DNA of 10,143 nt from a bacterium (lineage in GTDB: Bacteria > JAHJDO01), in NCBI GenBank assembly GCA_030611945.1, contig JAUWOV010000062.1:1-10143 (forward strand). Direction: 5' to 3'. The notes under the pieces are model-generated. The model was given only the letters and a program-made list of their open reading frames with translations. It was not told where the DNA came from and did not search any database. The position numbers and the translations under genes were made by a program. This document shows positions 244-6,675 of the stretch, one piece after another. The stretch's first letter is position 1. Each line of letters starts with the position of its first letter.

Positions 244-273
244 TTGCATTTTCTAATAGCTTTGCTTTATAAT
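244..273 (+). promoter_or_regulatory. sigma70-like promoter for the MC1-like gene
   Basis: A consensus -10 box TATAAT lies at 268-273. A weak -35 candidate, TTGCAT, lies at 244-249 with an 18-nt spacer. Transcription would start near 280 and give a leader of about 35 nt before the strong ribosome binding site. The -10 match is convincing; the -35 is not. Confidence 0.6.
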
Positions 274-314
274 GCCATAAACTAATAAGCTAACTAAAAC
301 AAGGAGGAGAAAGA

Positions 315-620
315 ATGGCAAAGAAAGCAGAAGCAAAGCTCTACTCACTGAGAATAGGCAAAAAGGAAGATCACATCTTTAAAGGGAAAGGTGCAAGACA
401 GGCTGCTTTAAAAGCTGCTTCCAGAGGGCTAAAGGACACTGACGGTCTCATTAAATTAAGAGAGCACAGCAAGAAAAAAGACGGCAAATGGAGAATACAC
501 ATATTTGAAGGTTCCGTAAAGAAAATTGCTAAACCCGCTAATGCGCCCGATTGGATGCCAGATACAATAAACAAACCGGTTGCAAAAAAACTCCGCGTGG
601 AAAAATTAGACAAAATATAA
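315..620 (+). CDS. MC1-family chromosomal architecture protein (archaeal-type DNA-bending protein)
   Basis: The 101-residue basic protein matches the MC1 family of monomeric DNA-bending nucleoid proteins known from Methanosarcina and haloarchaea. Shared landmarks are the GKxxRQAALKAAxRG segment (residues 24-38, here with ARQAALKAASRG), the D/I-LRE strand (43-50), a KW.IHIFEG strand (58-66), and the proline-rich arm P74, P78, W80, P82 leading into I-KP--KK-R-EKL (85-98). The MC1 proline/tryptophan arm contacts and sharply bends DNA. The family is usually about 93 residues, so this copy is essentially full length with a short lysine-rich N-terminal extension. The start is set by the ribosome binding site AAGGAGGAG at 301-309, six nt before ATG, and by the TATAAT promoter upstream. 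It is a single-gene transcription unit that ends at a terminator shared with the converging map gene. The odd point is the host: the surrounding genes are bacterial. The family call is strong; binding and bending in this host are inferred. Confidence 0.9.
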   Translation: MAKKAEAKLYSLRIGKKEDHIFKGKGARQAALKAASRGLKDTDGLIKLREHSKKKDGKWRIHIFEGSVKKIAKPANAPDWMPDTINKPVAKKLRVEKLDKI

Positions 621-638
621 TACAAATTATTTCGTAAG

Positions 639-677
639 AAAAAAAATAGTTAGCTCCGACCAACAGCCGGAGCTTTT
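639..677. terminator. bidirectional intrinsic terminator between MC1-like gene and map
   Basis: The stem AGCTCCG (652-658) pairs with CGGAGCT (668-674) around a 9-nt loop. On the + strand it runs straight into TTTT (674-677). On the - strand the stem is followed after five nt by a run of eight T (complement of 639-646). It therefore serves both converging genes; the map stop codon at 678-680 touches its edge. Confidence 0.8.
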
Positions 678-1430
678 CTATTGGGAAAGCGTAAGGATTT
701 CTGTACCGCTATCAGTAATAGCTACAACATGTTCAAACTGCGCAGACAAACTGCCATCAGCGCTAACAGCTGTCCAGCCATCTGATAACACTTTTGTTTG
801 ATATGAGCCTGCATTAATCATGGGCTCAATTGCTATAACCAGCCCTTTTTTTAGAGTCATACCTGTGCCTGATTTGCCAAAGTGCTGCACCTGCGGATCT
901 TCATGAGCGCCGGACCCTATGCCGTGACCAACAAAATCTCTTACAACCGAAAAACCCTGTCGTTCAACATATACCTGAATAGCGCTGCCAATATCACCTA
1001 ACCTGTTATTTTCTATTGCTTCATTAATGCCAATGTCTAATGCTCTTTTTGTAACTTCAACAAGTTTTCTTGCAAGAGAAGATATATCTCCAACAGGATA
1101 GGTAATTGCTTTATCTCCGTTGTAACCATCTTTACAAACGCCAACATCCACAGTTATTATATCGCCTTCTCTTAAAATCTCATCTTTTCTAGGTATTCCA
1201 TGAACTACTGTATTATTAACAGAAGCGCATATACTGTTTGGATATCCTCGAATCCCCAAAAAAGATGGAATTGCATCAAAACTTCTAATATAGTCTTCAG
1301 CCAATCCGTCTAAATAAAGAGTAGAAACACCGGGTTTAATATGTTTGGAAATATAATCCAAGGTTTGTGCAGTTAATTGACAGCTTAACCTTATAAGTTC
1401 TATTTCTTCCGCTGATTTGTAATAAACCAT
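678..1430 (-). CDS. map: methionine aminopeptidase, type I
   Basis: This cytosolic metalloprotease removes the initiator methionine from nascent proteins after deformylation. At 250 residues it is the compact bacterial type Ia form without the type II insert. The five metal ligands of the pita-bread fold are present: D95 (in TVDVGV), D106 (in YNGDKA), H169 (in GHGIG), E202 (in IEPM) and E233 (in QFEHVVAI). The substrate-side histidines H77 (VVHGIP) and H176 (AHEDP) are present too. The ATG gives an N-terminus (YKSAEEIELIR) typical of the family; the ribosome binding site is weak, so it may depend on translation from the upstream leuA/cimA-like gene 33 nt away. It is the last gene of the leftward cluster and ends at the bidirectional terminator. 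A bacterial-type enzyme here argues that the host is not an archaeon. Confidence 0.97.
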   Translation of the reverse strand: MVYYKSAEEIELIRLSCQLTAQTLDYISKHIKPGVSTLYLDGLAEDYIRSFDAIPSFLGIRGYPNSICASVNNTVVHGIPRKDEILREGDIITVDVGVCKDGYNGDKAITYPVGDISSLARKLVEVTKRALDIGINEAIENNRLGDIGSAIQVYVERQGFSVVRDFVGHGIGSGAHEDPQVQHFGKSGTGMTLKKGLVIAIEPMINAGSYQTKVLSDGWTAVSADGSLSAQFEHVVAITDSGTEILTLSQ

Positions 1431-1463: not shown

Positions 1464-2993
1464 TTACTGTTCTCGCGCAATAATGTTTAGCATCCTCTCA
1501 GATGCCTTAATAGCTGCTATAATCTGATCAGAATCAACGCCAATAGTTTTAAAAACCTTGTCTTTGGCAGACCATATTATCAATGTTTCAACTAAAGCGC
1601 TTGTTTTTCCTCCTGGAGGAATTCTAACTTCATAATCAATTAATTCCGGCATGGAGAGTTTTATCCTGCTGCACGCTTTTTTTAAAGCATTCATAAAAGC
1701 ATCGTATCCACCATTACCGGACGCAGATTCTTTTATCTTCTGTTCTCCGTATTGAAGGACAAATGACGCTGTCGGCAAAATTCCCTTTCCGCTTGTTATA
1801 ATACAATCTGTGATTTTAACTAAACTACCTTCTCCTATTTCAAGTACATCGGCAATTATAAAAGGCAGATCCTCTATTGTGATTGACTCTTTTTTATCAC
1901 CAAGCTGGATTATCTCCTGCAGGACTTTCTTCTTGTTTTCTTCAGTCAGCTCTATTCCCAATTCAATCAAATTTTGATCTAACGAAGCCTTTCCGCTCAG
2001 TTTACCAAGAGCATATGTTCTTTTTCTGCCAAATCTTTCAGGCAAAAGCGGATTTGCATATAAATTTGCCTTCTTATCTCCATCAGCATGGATTCCACTG
2101 GTTTGTGTAAAAACGTCCTGACCAACAATTGGTGTGTTTGCGGCAACTCTCTTACCTGAAAAAGTCTCTACCAATTTACTGGCAGAAACAATCTTTCTTT
2201 CAACAATATGTGTCTTATATTCTGTATTATCATGAATATTCGCTGCAATTTCACCCAAAGAAGCGTTGCCTGTACGTTCGCCTAAAGAATTAACAGTAAC
2301 ATGAATTGCCACAGCTCCTGCCTCAATTGCATACAGGCTGTTTGCAGTGGCAAGACCATAATCATTATGCGCATGAAAGTCAAACCCCATATCAGGGAAT
2401 GAATTTACCATATCCTTAACATAGGTATATGTTGTATGAGGAGTAAGAATTCCAAGAGTGTCAGGCAGCATTATTCTGTTAACATTCATATTGCATAGCG
2501 CTCTCGTAATTTCCATAACATAATCCTTAGAATCTCTATAGCCATTAGACCAGTCTTCCAAGTAAATATTTACAATGACCCCTTTTTCTTTTGCATAATC
2601 TATTGTCTCTTTTATTTCACTGATATGCGTCTTTATATCTTTGCGTAATTGAAATTTCAGATGCTTTTCCGAGCCTTTAGTTAATAGATTCATTATCTTA
2701 GCGCCTGTTGATACTATCCAGTCAACAGACGCTTTATGATCAACAAATCCCAATACTTCAACCTTGTTTAGGAAGCCTCTCAATTTTGCCCATTGCATGA
2801 TACTTGTAACGGATTCCTTCTCACCCTGAGACACTCTGGCAGACGCAACTTCTATTCTGTCTATACCTACTTCATTAAGTAACATCTTGGCAATATTCAA
2901 CTTCTCACTGCGAGAAAAAGAAACACCCTGAGTTTGTTCTCCATCTCTTAATGTTGTATCAAGTATTTCAATAACTCTCTTAACTTTTCCCAT
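1464..2993 (-). CDS. LeuA/CimA-family synthase (2-isopropylmalate or citramalate synthase)
   Basis: The 509-residue enzyme has an N-terminal HMGL-like TIM barrel and a C-terminal LeuA regulatory (dimer) domain. Such enzymes condense acetyl-CoA with a 2-oxo acid to start leucine synthesis (from 2-oxoisovalerate) or the citramalate route to isoleucine (from pyruvate). Seen directly: DTTLRDGEQ at 12-20 (catalytic Arg and metal Asp), the HAHND metal site at 207-211, GERTGNASLGE at 238-248, and the linker GIHADGDKKANLY near 300-312. The C-terminal domain from about 385 carries GNGGYDAFMNALKKA and ends at about 505. The text resembles the LeuA2-like group annotated as 2-isopropylmalate synthase in Bacteroidetes, but I cannot separate this from citramalate synthase by eye, so no symbol is given. 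Start: ATG with AAGGAG seven to nine nt upstream; that site overlaps the stop codon of the rhuM-like gene (TAA at 3005-3007), suggesting translational coupling. No leu/ilv genes adjoin it. Confidence 0.9.
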   Translation of the reverse strand: MGKVKRVIEILDTTLRDGEQTQGVSFSRSEKLNIAKMLLNEVGIDRIEVASARVSQGEKESVTSIMQWAKLRGFLNKVEVLGFVDHKASVDWIVSTGAKIMNLLTKGSEKHLKFQLRKDIKTHISEIKETIDYAKEKGVIVNIYLEDWSNGYRDSKDYVMEITRALCNMNVNRIMLPDTLGILTPHTTYTYVKDMVNSFPDMGFDFHAHNDYGLATANSLYAIEAGAVAIHVTVNSLGERTGNASLGEIAANIHDNTEYKTHIVERKIVSASKLVETFSGKRVAANTPIVGQDVFTQTSGIHADGDKKANLYANPLLPERFGRKRTYALGKLSGKASLDQNLIELGIELTEENKKKVLQEIIQLGDKKESITIEDLPFIIADVLEIGEGSLVKITDCIITSGKGILPTASFVLQYGEQKIKESASGNGGYDAFMNALKKACSRIKLSMPELIDYEVRIPPGGKTSALVETLIIWSAKDKVFKTIGVDSDQIIAAIKASERMLNIIAREQ

Positions 2994-3004: not shown

Positions 3005-4072
3005 TTATTGATTATTCCTGCCTTTGGCATCAACTTTTTTGTTGCTTTCTATTTTCTTGGTTTCGTTAACTAATACATCAAAAGAATTTCCTCTTTTATC
3101 ATAAGCAATCTGTCTTTTTTTAGAATATTTTTCGTATTCCTTCTCTGCGGCTTTCATGGCAATCTGATGCGATATTTTTCCTGCATGCGTTAATATTTCT
3201 CTTTCGTTAAGTCGCAAAAAAGAATTCAGCTTACTAATCCAATTTCTCATATACATTGGAATACGTCTCATTGCCTGCCCCTCTGCAAAAATCAAATATT
3301 GTTCAACTAAATTATTTAAGGCCAGCAATTCTTTTTCGTCTAAATAGTTTTTCGCAATTTCCACATCATCTTTGCGAATTTTTACTCCCCGCCAACTTAT
3401 TAATCCCATACTTGCTTTCTTACTGTCTGCTCTTTTATGAATAATTTCTGCAGCGGTTTTCCCTGTAATCGCCCAATGCATCTTATTTTGAACGGTCTTA
3501 AAAAAAACAATACTCATTTCATTCGTTGGGTCATAGTCAACACTTGTGGCATAAATATCTGTAATTTTCTGATAAAAACGCCGTTCGGATGTTCGTATAT
3601 CCTGAATACGCCTAATTAACTCATCATAATAATCAAACGGCTGGTTTGGATTCTTGAGCCGTTCATCATCTAAAACAAACCCCTTAACTATATATTCCCT
3701 TAAATGACGTGTTGCCCATTGCCTGAAATGAGTTGCTACCCTGGATTTAATACGATATCCAACAGATATGATCATGTCTAAGTTATAATAATCTACCTTC
3801 CTTTTGACTTGACGCTCACCCTCTTTTCGAACTATTAAGAAATCCTTAATAGTTGCATTCTTATTGAGCTCTTCCTCATCAAAGATGTTTTTAATATGCA
3901 TATTGATATTCGGAACCGTTGTTTGAAATAGTTCTGCCATCAATTGCTGTGAAAGCCACACCGTTTCATCTTGGAATCTAACATCAATCTTAGTTTCACC
4001 TGTTTCGGTTTGGTAAATAATAAGCTGTGATTTATTTTTATCTCTATTAGCCATAAAGCGTTTTATCTCCAT
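3005..4072 (-). CDS. RhuM-family protein (virulence RhuM, DNA-binding type)
   Basis: The protein has up to 355 residues and belongs to the Virulence_RhuM family, named from a Salmonella pathogenicity-island gene and often found beside type I restriction genes. Its molecular role is unproven. Visible blocks: the entry strand QLIIYQTETGETKI (16-29), a helix-turn-helix-like region VWLSQQLMAELFQTT..NI..HIKNIF (38-64), YYNLDMIISVGYRIKS (95-110), FRQWATRHLREYIVKGF (116-132), and RRFYQKITDIYATSVDYDP (164-182). The core ends with KTAAEIIHKRADS (205-217) and MGLISW (222-227). Length is full for the family and the frame is unbroken. Start choice is uncertain: the ATG at 4072 has GGAG directly against it, while the second ATG (4054, MANRDK) gives the usual family N-terminus but sits 12 nt from GGAG. 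It lies 12 nt after the second exported protein and 11 nt before the LeuA/CimA-like gene, so it is embedded in the cluster. Confidence 0.88.
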   Translation of the reverse strand: MEIKRFMANRDKNKSQLIIYQTETGETKIDVRFQDETVWLSQQLMAELFQTTVPNINMHIKNIFDEEELNKNATIKDFLIVRKEGERQVKRKVDYYNLDMIISVGYRIKSRVATHFRQWATRHLREYIVKGFVLDDERLKNPNQPFDYYDELIRRIQDIRTSERRFYQKITDIYATSVDYDPTNEMSIVFFKTVQNKMHWAITGKTAAEIIHKRADSKKASMGLISWRGVKIRKDDVEIAKNYLDEKELLALNNLVEQYLIFAEGQAMRRIPMYMRNWISKLNSFLRLNEREILTHAGKISHQIAMKAAEKEYEKYSKKRQIAYDKRGNSFDVLVNETKKIESNKKVDAKGRNNQ

Positions 4073-4084
4073 CTCCTGTTCTTT

Positions 4085-4648
4085 TTAAAATGCTCCCTCC
4101 GTCATTGCAAAGGACAAAGTCTCGCGACCCCGAACGCTTTCGGGGTCATTCTCCGACTTGATCGTGGAATCCAGATGTTTGTTGCGCAATGTCATTTCCA
4201 TATTATTTTTCTCTAATTTGTCTGATAAAGATTTGACCCCCAAATCCGATGAGTCTCCCCTAGGTCCTTTCATTACTTTAAGTTTATCGACATACATACA
4301 TATTATCCATGTTTGTGGAAAGGGAGATAAATTGTTCTTAGTTGAACCTGCATGGAATCTAGTACTCAACCGTCCTTCTACATGAATCCAACTACCTGGT
4401 TTGATCTTCTTAATCTTGTCGCGAAATTCATTGTCTCCGTATAGTGCGCAAGTCTGTCCTCCAACATACCCAGTGGACAGATAATATCGGTAGAGATATT
4501 TGGGACAGATTTTAAGAACTCCCTCTAATATGTGCATCTCTTTGTCAATTTCTTGGCATTTCGCTTGATTCTGCTGTGCTCCTGTCACATTGGTTAGAAT
4601 GAAAGCGATACATAGCACATACATAATTATGTTTTTAATGCGTTTCAT
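4085..4648 (-). CDS. small exported protein of unknown function with repeat-derived C-terminus
   Basis: The protein has 187 residues and I do not recognise the family. Residues 1-24 are a Sec signal peptide: MKRIKN, a hydrophobic core IIMYVLCIAFILTNV, and likely cleavage after VTGA. The mature part holds cysteines C31, C48 and C67 and a stretch GSWIHVEGRLSTRF (85-98) that reads like a beta-barrel (OB-like) strand pair; the fold is inferred. Residues from about 157 to the end (HLDSTIKSENDPESVRGRE...FAMTEGAF) are encoded by palindromic repeat DNA at 4126-4170 and flanks, so the original C-terminus was probably replaced or extended. Its stop is 12 nt before the RhuM-like start, and its own ATG lies 12 nt after the stop of the other exported protein, so the two small exported proteins are likely cotranscribed and may act together in the envelope. 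The ribosome binding site is weak (GAAAGA). Confidence 0.75.
   Translation of the reverse strand: MKRIKNIIMYVLCIAFILTNVTGAQQNQAKCQEIDKEMHILEGVLKICPKYLYRYYLSTGYVGGQTCALYGDNEFRDKIKKIKPGSWIHVEGRLSTRFHAGSTKNNLSPFPQTWIICMYVDKLKVMKGPRGDSSDLGVKSLSDKLEKNNMEMTLRNKHLDSTIKSENDPESVRGRETLSFAMTEGAF
4126..4170. repeat. two abutting palindromes inside a coding 3' end
   Basis: At 4126-4147 the sequence GACCCCGAACGCTTTCGGGGTC is a 22-bp inverted repeat with one mismatched pair. Directly next to it, 4148-4156 and 4162-4170 form an imperfect 9-bp stem (ATTCTCCGA / TCGTGGAAT) around a 5-nt loop. On the - strand the second reads like CTGGATTCC...GAATGAC, a dispersed-repeat pattern seen in many bacterial genomes. 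The core CCCGAA..CTTTCGGG is shared with the 32-bp palindrome at 10053-10084. All of it is translated as the tail of the small exported protein. Confidence 0.7.
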
Positions 4649-4660
4649 AAGTACTGTCTT

Positions 4661-5140
4661 TCACTGTTTAAGCTCATCCTTGACATTTTCTAGGTATTTA
4701 CCAAGTTGAATCATCTGTTCGGTAGAGCAGAACAATAATGACACTGCTCCATGTTGAAACGAATAAGTTTGATAAATTCCTTTATGTCTTACAGGGGAAT
4801 TCACAAACAGTAAACAAAGATCATTTTCTCGAAGGATAATCCGTTCATCTTTAGGCAGTATCCTTTTTGTCTTTGGACTTGTTGTGAGCACTGTGATTTC
4901 ATTGTTGACTTTTAAATTGCCCTTAAGCACTTCAAGGATTTGAATCCGAGCTAATACCGCATCATAACCTTTAATCTTTTCCTCTATATCTGCGAACCCA
5001 GTGACCCTGCCAACCACAATATTCTGAGAACCATCGACAATATTTTTGAGAGAAACAGCTATTCTCTCGGCATTAGCGGGACAAATGGCAAACGAAATGA
5101 TGAGGGCAAGAACTATCTGAATATTTGCAATCTTGTTTAT
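4661..5140 (-). CDS. small exported protein of unknown function, apparent ATA start
   Basis: I read this as 159 residues starting at an ATA codon (5138-5140). The frame has no ATG. The first GTG (5017) would give 118 residues but would discard a clear signal peptide and has no good ribosome binding site. From the ATA, residues 1-24 read (M)NKIANIQIVLALIISFAICPANA: a lysine, a hydrophobic core and an ANA cleavage site before ER. The mature part begins ERIAVSLKNIVDGSQNIVVG and continues with ARIQILEVLKGNLKVNNEITVL, a pattern common in small secreted beta-barrel proteins of no known activity; C-terminal residues DLCLLFVNS and VSLLFCSTEQM look like further strands. No catalytic motif is visible. 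It is the first gene of the leftward cluster, 165 nt from the AlbA_2 gene, and its stop overlaps nothing. An in-frame stop at 5162-5164 closes the frame upstream. If the ATA is not used, the gene may be silent. Confidence 0.7.
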   Translation of the reverse strand: MNKIANIQIVLALIISFAICPANAERIAVSLKNIVDGSQNIVVGRVTGFADIEEKIKGYDAVLARIQILEVLKGNLKVNNEITVLTTSPKTKRILPKDERIILRENDLCLLFVNSPVRHKGIYQTYSFQHGAVSLLFCSTEQMIQLGKYLENVKDELKQ

Positions 5141-5153
5141 GATATGACCTCCT
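5138..5153 (-). promoter_or_regulatory. strong ribosome binding site ahead of an ATA start
   Basis: On the - strand AGGAGGT (complement of 5147-5153) is followed by six nt (CATATC) and then ATA AAC AAG. Spacing is ideal for the ATA, and the signal peptide begins exactly there. This is the main reason for placing the start at 5140 and not at the internal GTG. Confidence 0.7.
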
Positions 5154-5304
5154 GTAAACAGCTATTTTTTGTCAGGTGTATCAGTTGTTTGGAATTTGCC
5201 ATTCGTATGTGTATATTATCTTTGTAGCTGCCATTTGTTTTGCTAGATTTCCATACTGCTTACATATTTAGCAAAAGAGGTTTGTTTGGGAATAGGCAGA
5301 GTAA

Positions 5305-6675
5305 TTATTTTTTTGCTTTCCAATATCCACCTTTATCAGGACCAATTCTTTCAAGTAATCCTTTTTGTTTTAGTTTAGAGATGTTTTTCTCAACCGCTGT
5401 CGTACTAATGTCAAACTTTTTAGCGAGCTCTTTTGCTGTAATATATTTATCTTTCCTAATCCATGAAATAATTTCTATTTGATTTTCTCCCAACCTTTCT
5501 CCCAACCTTTCTCCCAACCTTTCAGTGACCTTCTCATCAATCTTTGTCATCTTTAGATATTCTCTACTCGGCTTAAAAACAACATAAAAATGCGTATCGG
5601 TGTATTCTATCTTTGGATAAGGCGCATTTTCTTTCTTGCAAATATCTCTCATTCTCTTCATGCCGGAACCAATTTTTTCGCCGAAATGAATACGAGAAAA
5701 TAAATCTGCGACAAGATGATTTCTTCTAAAAATAGTTTTGCCTAAAACAAATTTCTTCGGCTTAACCCAGATATTCTCTATCTGGATTCTATCAGGAAAA
5801 AATTTTAATATGTTGTTGTGCCCATGTTCAAAATAATCTTTATGCATTACAGAATTTATAACTGCTTCTCTTATAGCTTCAAAGGAGTACTCATAAATAT
5901 TTTCCCTCTGAGGTCTTCCTGTAATTCTATAAGCAACTTTTGCATACAGTTGAACAAAGTCCATAACCTGCTCAATAATTTCAAATAGACCGCCGGTTAT
6001 TTCTTTTCTGTCAATTATATCCACACCTTCTTTGTCTTTGAAAAGCACCACTGTAAAGACCGACCATGGGATAAATTTTTGAGGTTCTTTAGCAAAGAAT
6101 AGAATTCCAGCATTGTTAAGATAGATTTTTCCTTCTTGAGCCTCTTTTGCTCCTAAACTGCTAAGAATTTTTTCAGTAGGCAGCGTTTTGGAAAGACCTG
6201 CTAAATCTAAAAACTTATTTATTTTCTCTCTGCTAAAATCTCTTGGATAACTGAATTTTTTATTTATTAGTTCGTCAAATCTTACTTTTCCTTCTGATTT
6301 AAAGAAACTTAAAATTTCACTTCTGCTCATCTTTTGAGAATTCGCACCAATTCTTTTATAAAATCCAGATGAACACCTGTAAGGCTTATCCTCTCCTTCC
6401 TTTATTTTTATAATTAAAATATTCTCTAAAGATTTAATAGTAATTTTTATTGGTGGATCACAATTCCTAACAATATTCTGAATATCCGATTTCAACTTGT
6501 TTGTTATTTTCAGACCTTTAATTTCGCCCCCATCGGTTACTCCTAAAAGTATGCTTCCACCTGAAGAATTAGAAAAAGCAACAAAATCTTTTTCAACACT
6601 AGAAAAACCCTGCTTAAATTCCATGAAATATCCTTCGCCTTCCTTTAGAATCAGAGCAAGTTCTTTTTTATCCAT
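5305..6675 (-). CDS. AlbA_2-domain transcriptional regulator with C-terminal winged helix
   Basis: The protein has 456 residues. Residues about 15-125 are an AlbA_2 (Schlafen-type, divergent AAA_4) domain: E19-F-K, the FSNSSGGSILLGVTD block (34-48), and PYRCSSGFYKRIGANSQKM (98-116). Residues about 260-345 match the HATPase_c_4 domain of this group: FEAIREAVINSVMHKDYFE (265-283) and GEKIGSGMKRM (332-342). A short repeat linker (ERLG x3, residues 385-396) leads to a winged helix at about 397-456 with recognition helix ISTTAVEKNISKLKQKG. Databases often call these putative transcriptional regulators or, misleadingly, RecG-like helicases; there is no helicase motif. Its ATG overlaps the stop of the upstream BioD/DRTGG gene by 8 nt (ATGGATAA), so translation is coupled and it is the last gene of the mtnP operon. 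Which DNA or RNA it binds cannot be read from the sequence; autoregulation of the operon is a reasonable inference. Confidence 0.9.
   Translation of the reverse strand: MDKKELALILKEGEGYFMEFKQGFSSVEKDFVAFSNSSGGSILLGVTDGGEIKGLKITNKLKSDIQNIVRNCDPPIKITIKSLENILIIKIKEGEDKPYRCSSGFYKRIGANSQKMSRSEILSFFKSEGKVRFDELINKKFSYPRDFSREKINKFLDLAGLSKTLPTEKILSSLGAKEAQEGKIYLNNAGILFFAKEPQKFIPWSVFTVVLFKDKEGVDIIDRKEITGGLFEIIEQVMDFVQLYAKVAYRITGRPQRENIYEYSFEAIREAVINSVMHKDYFEHGHNNILKFFPDRIQIENIWVKPKKFVLGKTIFRRNHLVADLFSRIHFGEKIGSGMKRMRDICKKENAPYPKIEYTDTHFYVVFKPSREYLKMTKIDEKVTERLGERLGERLGENQIEIISWIRKDKYITAKELAKKFDISTTAVEKNISKLKQKGLLERIGPDKGGYWKAKK
5485..5520 (-). repeat. three 12-bp tandem repeats encoding ERLG units
   Basis: The unit TTCTCCCAACCT (as on the + strand) occurs three times without change, and a fourth copy begins (TTC) before diverging. 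On the - strand it encodes repeated ERLG/GERL residues between the ATPase-like domain and the winged helix. Because the unit is a multiple of three, gain or loss of units keeps the frame. Related proteins often carry comparable short repeats (for example KVTE or KVGE units) at the same place. Confidence 0.85.

Follow-up and report, generated by a model that had tools for sequence, protein, structure and literature searches.

We identified a gene for MC1, an archaeal DNA-bending nucleoid protein, in the chromosome of a bacterium. With a probability of roughly 80%, it is a true MC1 that was acquired once from an Altiarchaeota-like archaeon, duplicated and kept beside HU. The gene lies in a 10,143-nucleotide stretch of DNA (hereafter, the window) that constitutes contig C20 of a genome bin of 1.66 Mb with an estimated completeness of 91% (Table 1).

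Table 1. Features of the MC1 locus and its neighbours (window coordinates)
Feature	Position	Strand	Remarks
Weak -35-like element, TTGCAT	244–249	+	Lies in the conserved TTTTTTATTTGCATT stretch, with a spacer of 18 bases before the -10 element
-10 element, TATAAT (perfect)	268–273	+	From sequence; also found ahead of paralogue B in the other species of the genus
Shine–Dalgarno sequence, AAGGAGG	301–307	+	7 bases before the ATG; conserved in 5/5 species of the genus
MC1 gene (paralogue B)	315–620	+	101 amino acids; ATG start; pI 10.3
Hairpin, followed by a T-rich tail on each strand	652–674	.	Bidirectional terminator between MC1 and MetAP
Type I methionine aminopeptidase (MetAP)-like gene (Peptidase_M24)	678–1430	-	PF00557; convergent to MC1
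LeuA/homocitrate-synthase-like gene	1464–2993	-	HMGL-like and LeuA_dimer domains

The first-pass annotation had placed MC1 in a bacterial chromosome, and both parts of that claim are borne out, by the markers of the host described below and by a match of the product to the Pfam MC1 profile (PF05854) of 70.9 bits, where the curated cut-off is 23 bits (E = 1.1e-19, profile positions 13–96 of 96). MC1 is the sole Pfam match, with none to the HU/IHF profile (PF00216), and the Methanosarcina MC1 of solved structure is a phmmer match (E = 1.8e-14; PDB 1t23). Judged by its sequence, the product is a genuine MC1. The RQAALKAA.RG block and the residues P74, P78, W80, P82 and I85-N-K-P88, on which the initial assignment was based, are all found in the product, and the residues align with P68, P72, W74, P76 and I79-S-K-P82 of the Methanosarcina thermophila protein. 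The two proteins, the latter from strain CHTI55 (PDB 1t23, 2khl and 2nbj), are approximately 44% identical and belong to the same family, with the same size, predicted order of strands and helix, and pI (10.3).

In published work, MC1 bends DNA through contacts made by Pro72, Trp74 and Met75 of an arm, by Arg25 of the helix and by Lys86/Ile89 (PMC3928310; complex, PMC6776556), and bending is lost on mutation of R25, P72, W74 or I89 (PMC3928310). The two proteins have almost all of their DNA-contact residues in common, among them the ones on which bending depends. In the alignment, R25, Q26, K30, P72 and W74 of M. thermophila MC1 correspond to R28, Q29, K33, P78 and W80 of the window protein, and M75, K81, K85, K86 and R88 correspond to M81, K87, K91, K92 and R94. 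Position I89 is V95 here, and valine at this position occurs in some published MC1s (PMC3928310). R28, P78, W80, M81 and K92 are invariant throughout the genus, and Q23 and R71 are replaced by glycine and alanine. Unlike the M. thermophila protein, window MC1 has a KKDGKWR extension before strand 4 and lacks Trp61, a residue that was reported to be dispensable for binding.

The AlphaFold model of window MC1 has a mean pLDDT of 89.2 and consists of strands at 8–14, 18–24, 46–50, 59–72 and 84–98 and a helix at 27–37. The modelled order of these elements is the same as in the published fold, in which two strands, a helix and three strands follow one another and the arm lies between strands 4 and 5 (PMC6776556). 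Comparison of the model with the PDB by Foldseek and VIA-align gave no significant match and listed no MC1 entry; because the sequence evidence is strong, we did not count this against membership of the family. The fold comparison also matched models of viral MC1-domain proteins (Catovirus and Faunusvirus).

The gene had been described as standing alone, with a consensus -10 element, a very strong ribosome-binding site and its own terminator. The first two signals are present and conserved in the genus: upstream of paralogue B, the TTTTTTATTTGCATT stretch is followed approximately 18 bases downstream by TATAAT and then by AAGGAGG, with the -10 block one base off in the upstream alignment of one genome (G001). 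Several copies of paralogue A have the same upstream layout, with the -10 element at the same spacing, and an extra A-type copy (L006/L174) is without this promoter. An automatic promoter scan of the window found no strong sigma-70 site for the MC1 gene because the -35 element is weak. The terminator hairpin exists but is not exclusive to MC1; its minus-strand form was scored by the program, its plus-strand tail (TTTTCTATT) was read from the sequence, and it can serve both convergent genes. The genome holds a second MC1 copy, on contig C12.

The neighbours of the gene are of bacterial type, as originally claimed, and much of their order is shared across the genus. The order for paralogue B (MC1, MetAP, LeuA-like, DRTGG protein and MTA phosphorylase (MTAP)) is whole in G002 and G004 and occurs in parts on the shorter contigs of G001 and G003. 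The MetAP gene adjoins MC1 in G001–G004, and the LeuA-like gene is syntenic in G002 and G004 and is a contig-end fragment in G003. In G002 and G004 the LeuA-like gene adjoins the DRTGG gene; in the window a segment (3005–6675) lies between them. This segment holds a RhuM-family gene, an AlbA_2/HATPase_c_4 gene and two short genes of unknown identity, and is likely to be a mobile insertion. A gene with a KilA-N domain, a phage-type domain, lies near the contig end (9000–9821). Each of the five genomes of the genus has two or three MC1 genes, and dN/dS values of 0.02–0.19 among orthologues indicate that these genes are under purifying selection and functional.

The genome that carries window MC1 is bacterial. 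Its bin has one small-subunit rRNA gene, a full-length bacterial 16S (1550 bits), and its RNA polymerase is bacterial, with rpoB and rpoC joined in one frame of 2633 residues. A search for HU or IHF, suggested by the first-pass annotation, found canonical HU as a separate gene on contig C105, beside a gene that we assigned to ribosomal protein L21 by reading the sequence; a match to Alba was looked for in the host genome and not found. Fused rpoB–rpoC frames of approximately 2600–2690 residues occur at L182 (G000:C103, 1871–9769), L183, L184 and L185. The fusion is common to the window's genus and a second phylum with MC1, described below, and no other bacterial genome that gave a hit in this search had it. 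A search of the literature brought up no earlier account of an rpoB–rpoC fusion in a phylum of this kind.

HU is retained in every genome of the genus, and the best reading of the function of MC1, which we infer from sequence, is that of an accessory architectural DNA-bending protein alongside HU. As a small basic protein, it would bind DNA as a monomer and bend it sharply. The arm residues Pro78, Trp80 and Met81 would insert and intercalate in the minor groove, Arg28 would neutralise phosphates across the compressed major groove, and Lys92 and Val95 would hold a second minor-groove contact. The predicted outcome is DNA kinked into a V-turn, with negative supercoils constrained. Conservation of the contact residues is consistent with DNA binding and bending by window MC1 in its host. 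The first-pass annotation had also suggested that MC1 may be the lineage's main nucleoid protein. In favour of that role are the number of copies and the strength and conservation of the expression signals; the retained HU is against it or neutral. Tentatively, and at somewhat less than even odds, archaeal MC1 may in two sister bacterial phyla be a major nucleoid component that has been inherited vertically since before these phyla split and that together with HU forms a mixed archaeal–bacterial chromatin.

A comparable share of probability, also short of one half, goes to MC1 being a specialised DNA bender of low abundance, acting at sites such as origins, promoters or damaged DNA, rather than a general nucleoid protein. 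HU may already cover bulk packaging in every genome of the genus, and other candidate nucleoid proteins of Haloferax exceed its MC1 in abundance (PMC7613761). Against low abundance, the two to three copies per genome, the strong conserved ribosome-binding site and the consensus -10 element suggest substantial expression.

MC1 is not confined to the genus of the window. It is present in six of the seven genomes of a second, small phylum, two of whose MC1 records are labelled ‘bacterium’ and ‘Caldisericota bacterium’, and the two MC1-bearing phyla are sisters on the rpoB tree (91/98; SH-aLRT 96 in another tree). The other bacteria sampled were without MC1: 9 of 385 and 5 of 374 bacterial genomes gave matches, all of them from the window's genus or the second phylum except for one false hit, and none of 121 genomes from the phylum of G014 had MC1 (the samples overlap). 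The false hit, a profile match of 22.7 bits in G195, was rejected, as reading of the sequence placed it in the frame of an FtsJ-like methyltransferase.

The MC1 proteins of the second phylum (L114–L120) are approximately 68–75% identical to that of the window, and the second phylum has HU where this was tested. It differs from the window's genus in having both a KGARGAALKAA and an extra SPRAAALKAA paralogue type, the latter absent from the genus. One copy, in G060 (L118/L021:4989-5252), is interrupted close to its 3′ end by an in-frame TGA, through either gene decay or an error of assembly. Another second-phylum bin contains a methanogen-type MC1 (L176, G392:C2) beside the archaeal actin gene Salactin; this is probably a misbinned archaeal contig.

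Because inclusion of viral and other long rows left a first MC1 tree poorly resolved by long branches, we rebuilt it without them (67 rows and 98 columns, a short alignment, with 16 bacterial copies). All 16 bacterial copies form one clade, on a branch that is not fully supported (99/71), and together with two copies from the Altiarchaeales assembly WOR_SM1_SCG they form a clade at 100/99.6 that is nested, with two successive archaeal branches, in MC1 of the Altiarchaeota/DPANN type. A further branch (98/90) splits the bacterial and Altiarchaeota/DPANN rows from those of Methanosarcina and haloarchaea. Window MC1 is of the Altiarchaeota/DPANN type both in its tree placement and in its KKDG-W/Y-x insert, as bacterial and Altiarchaeota/DPANN sequences have in common an insert, KKDG.(W/Y), between strands 3 and 4. 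A four-residue insertion before IKLREH occurs in all bacterial copies, those of the second phylum included, and is missing from every archaeal sequence aligned. One of the archaeal close-kin genes adjoins the gene for aIF2-beta, and that contig is therefore archaeal.

The closest relatives, in WOR_SM1_SCG (L122/L022 and L135), are sister to the bacterial clade; L022 is 62% identical to window MC1 and has the same KKDG.WR insert, and the assembly, like the window genome, has two MC1 copies. These relatives differ in having an archaeal host with no HU match and in lacking the four-residue insertion. Because the bacterial clade is nested in Altiarchaeota/DPANN MC1, transfer from archaea to bacteria is well supported, and the pattern that the first-pass annotation had named as support for transfer, monophyletic bacterial copies nested in archaea, is what the tree gives (99/71 and 100/99.6). 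Its archaeal source also stands, although the nearest relatives are of the Altiarchaeota/DPANN type and not from Methanosarcina or haloarchaea.

The gene was apparently acquired before the two bacterial phyla diverged. We propose a single acquisition from an Altiarchaeota-like archaeon by the ancestor of the two sister phyla, after which the gene would have undergone an ancient duplication, gained bacterial expression signals and been retained for a long time beside HU. The ancient duplication is suggested by the presence of both the SPRAAALKAA and KGARGAALKAA types in the second phylum; the window's genus would have kept and re-duplicated the KGARGAALKAA type.

Transfer in the reverse direction, from bacteria to WOR_SM1_SCG, is less likely than transfer from archaea to bacteria, and we consider it unlikely overall, together with repeated or separate transfers and exchange between the phyla. 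Some features of the data are compatible with such histories: the donor branch, which holds the close kin, is one single-cell Altiarchaeales assembly, MC1 is patchy in the Altiarchaeota phylum (14 of 29 genomes), and bacterial monophyly relative to the WOR_SM1_SCG copy L122 has a support of just 99/71. The wider family, however, is archaeal, with the clade of bacterial and WOR_SM1_SCG copies inside it behind two successive archaeal branches, and the two bacterial phyla are sisters with a common rpoB–rpoC fusion.

A virus had been raised as an alternative source, and we now regard delivery by a giant virus, an archaeal virus or a phage as very improbable. MC1 domains do occur in giant viruses (PMC5671483), including A437L of PBCV-1 (PMC3281028), and in three tailed-virus-like contigs from IMG/VR (L097–L099), where the domain is joined to a long lysine/alanine-rich N-terminal tail. 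The copies on viral contigs, however, are weak relatives, 38% identical over a part of the protein and on very long branches, whereas the copies from cellular Altiarchaeales share 62% identity with window MC1 and are its closest kin. No match was found among 50,697 phage records, nor in the viral contigs when these were scanned with MC1 sequences of the genus only. Giant-virus MC1-domain proteins, which have the same fold in the model comparison, are distant in sequence, with approximately 15–27% identity in fold alignments.

Least credible of all is that an archaeal MC1 contig was misplaced in a bacterial bin: although the genomes are metagenome-assembled and the Salactin-linked contig in the second phylum is one likely case, contamination is rejected for the window gene by the gene order that recurs across bins of the genus and by the 16S, HU and RNA polymerase context, and it fits poorly with bacterial-type genes in the window itself, two to three copies in all five genomes, an insertion specific to bacteria, and bacterial-type promoters and ribosome-binding sites. 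An archaeal origin of the contig, which the first-pass annotation had named as grounds for abandoning its claim, is likewise contradicted by these genes and by the bacterial 16S and RNA polymerase of the bin.

The protein belongs to a known family, and it is the distribution and the transfer that are new. We found no description of a bacterial MC1 in the literature searched, coverage of which was incomplete; there, MC1 is reported from archaea and giant viruses only. HTa of Thermoplasma (an archaeal HU) and MC1 of marine group II are likewise nucleoid proteins that were gained horizontally (PMC6877293, PMC7613761). The transfer of HTa, the best-documented interdomain transfer of a nucleoid protein, ran from bacteria to archaea, whereas that of window MC1 would have run from archaea to bacteria, into a host that, unlike that of the M. 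thermophila protein, is a bacterium with HU. The finding would demonstrate that a protein from the core of archaeal chromatin can enter a bacterial chromosome and stay there beside HU, would offer a natural system in which to study how MC1 and HU share one genome, and would mark a gene-transfer event that links Altiarchaeota with two bacterial phyla.
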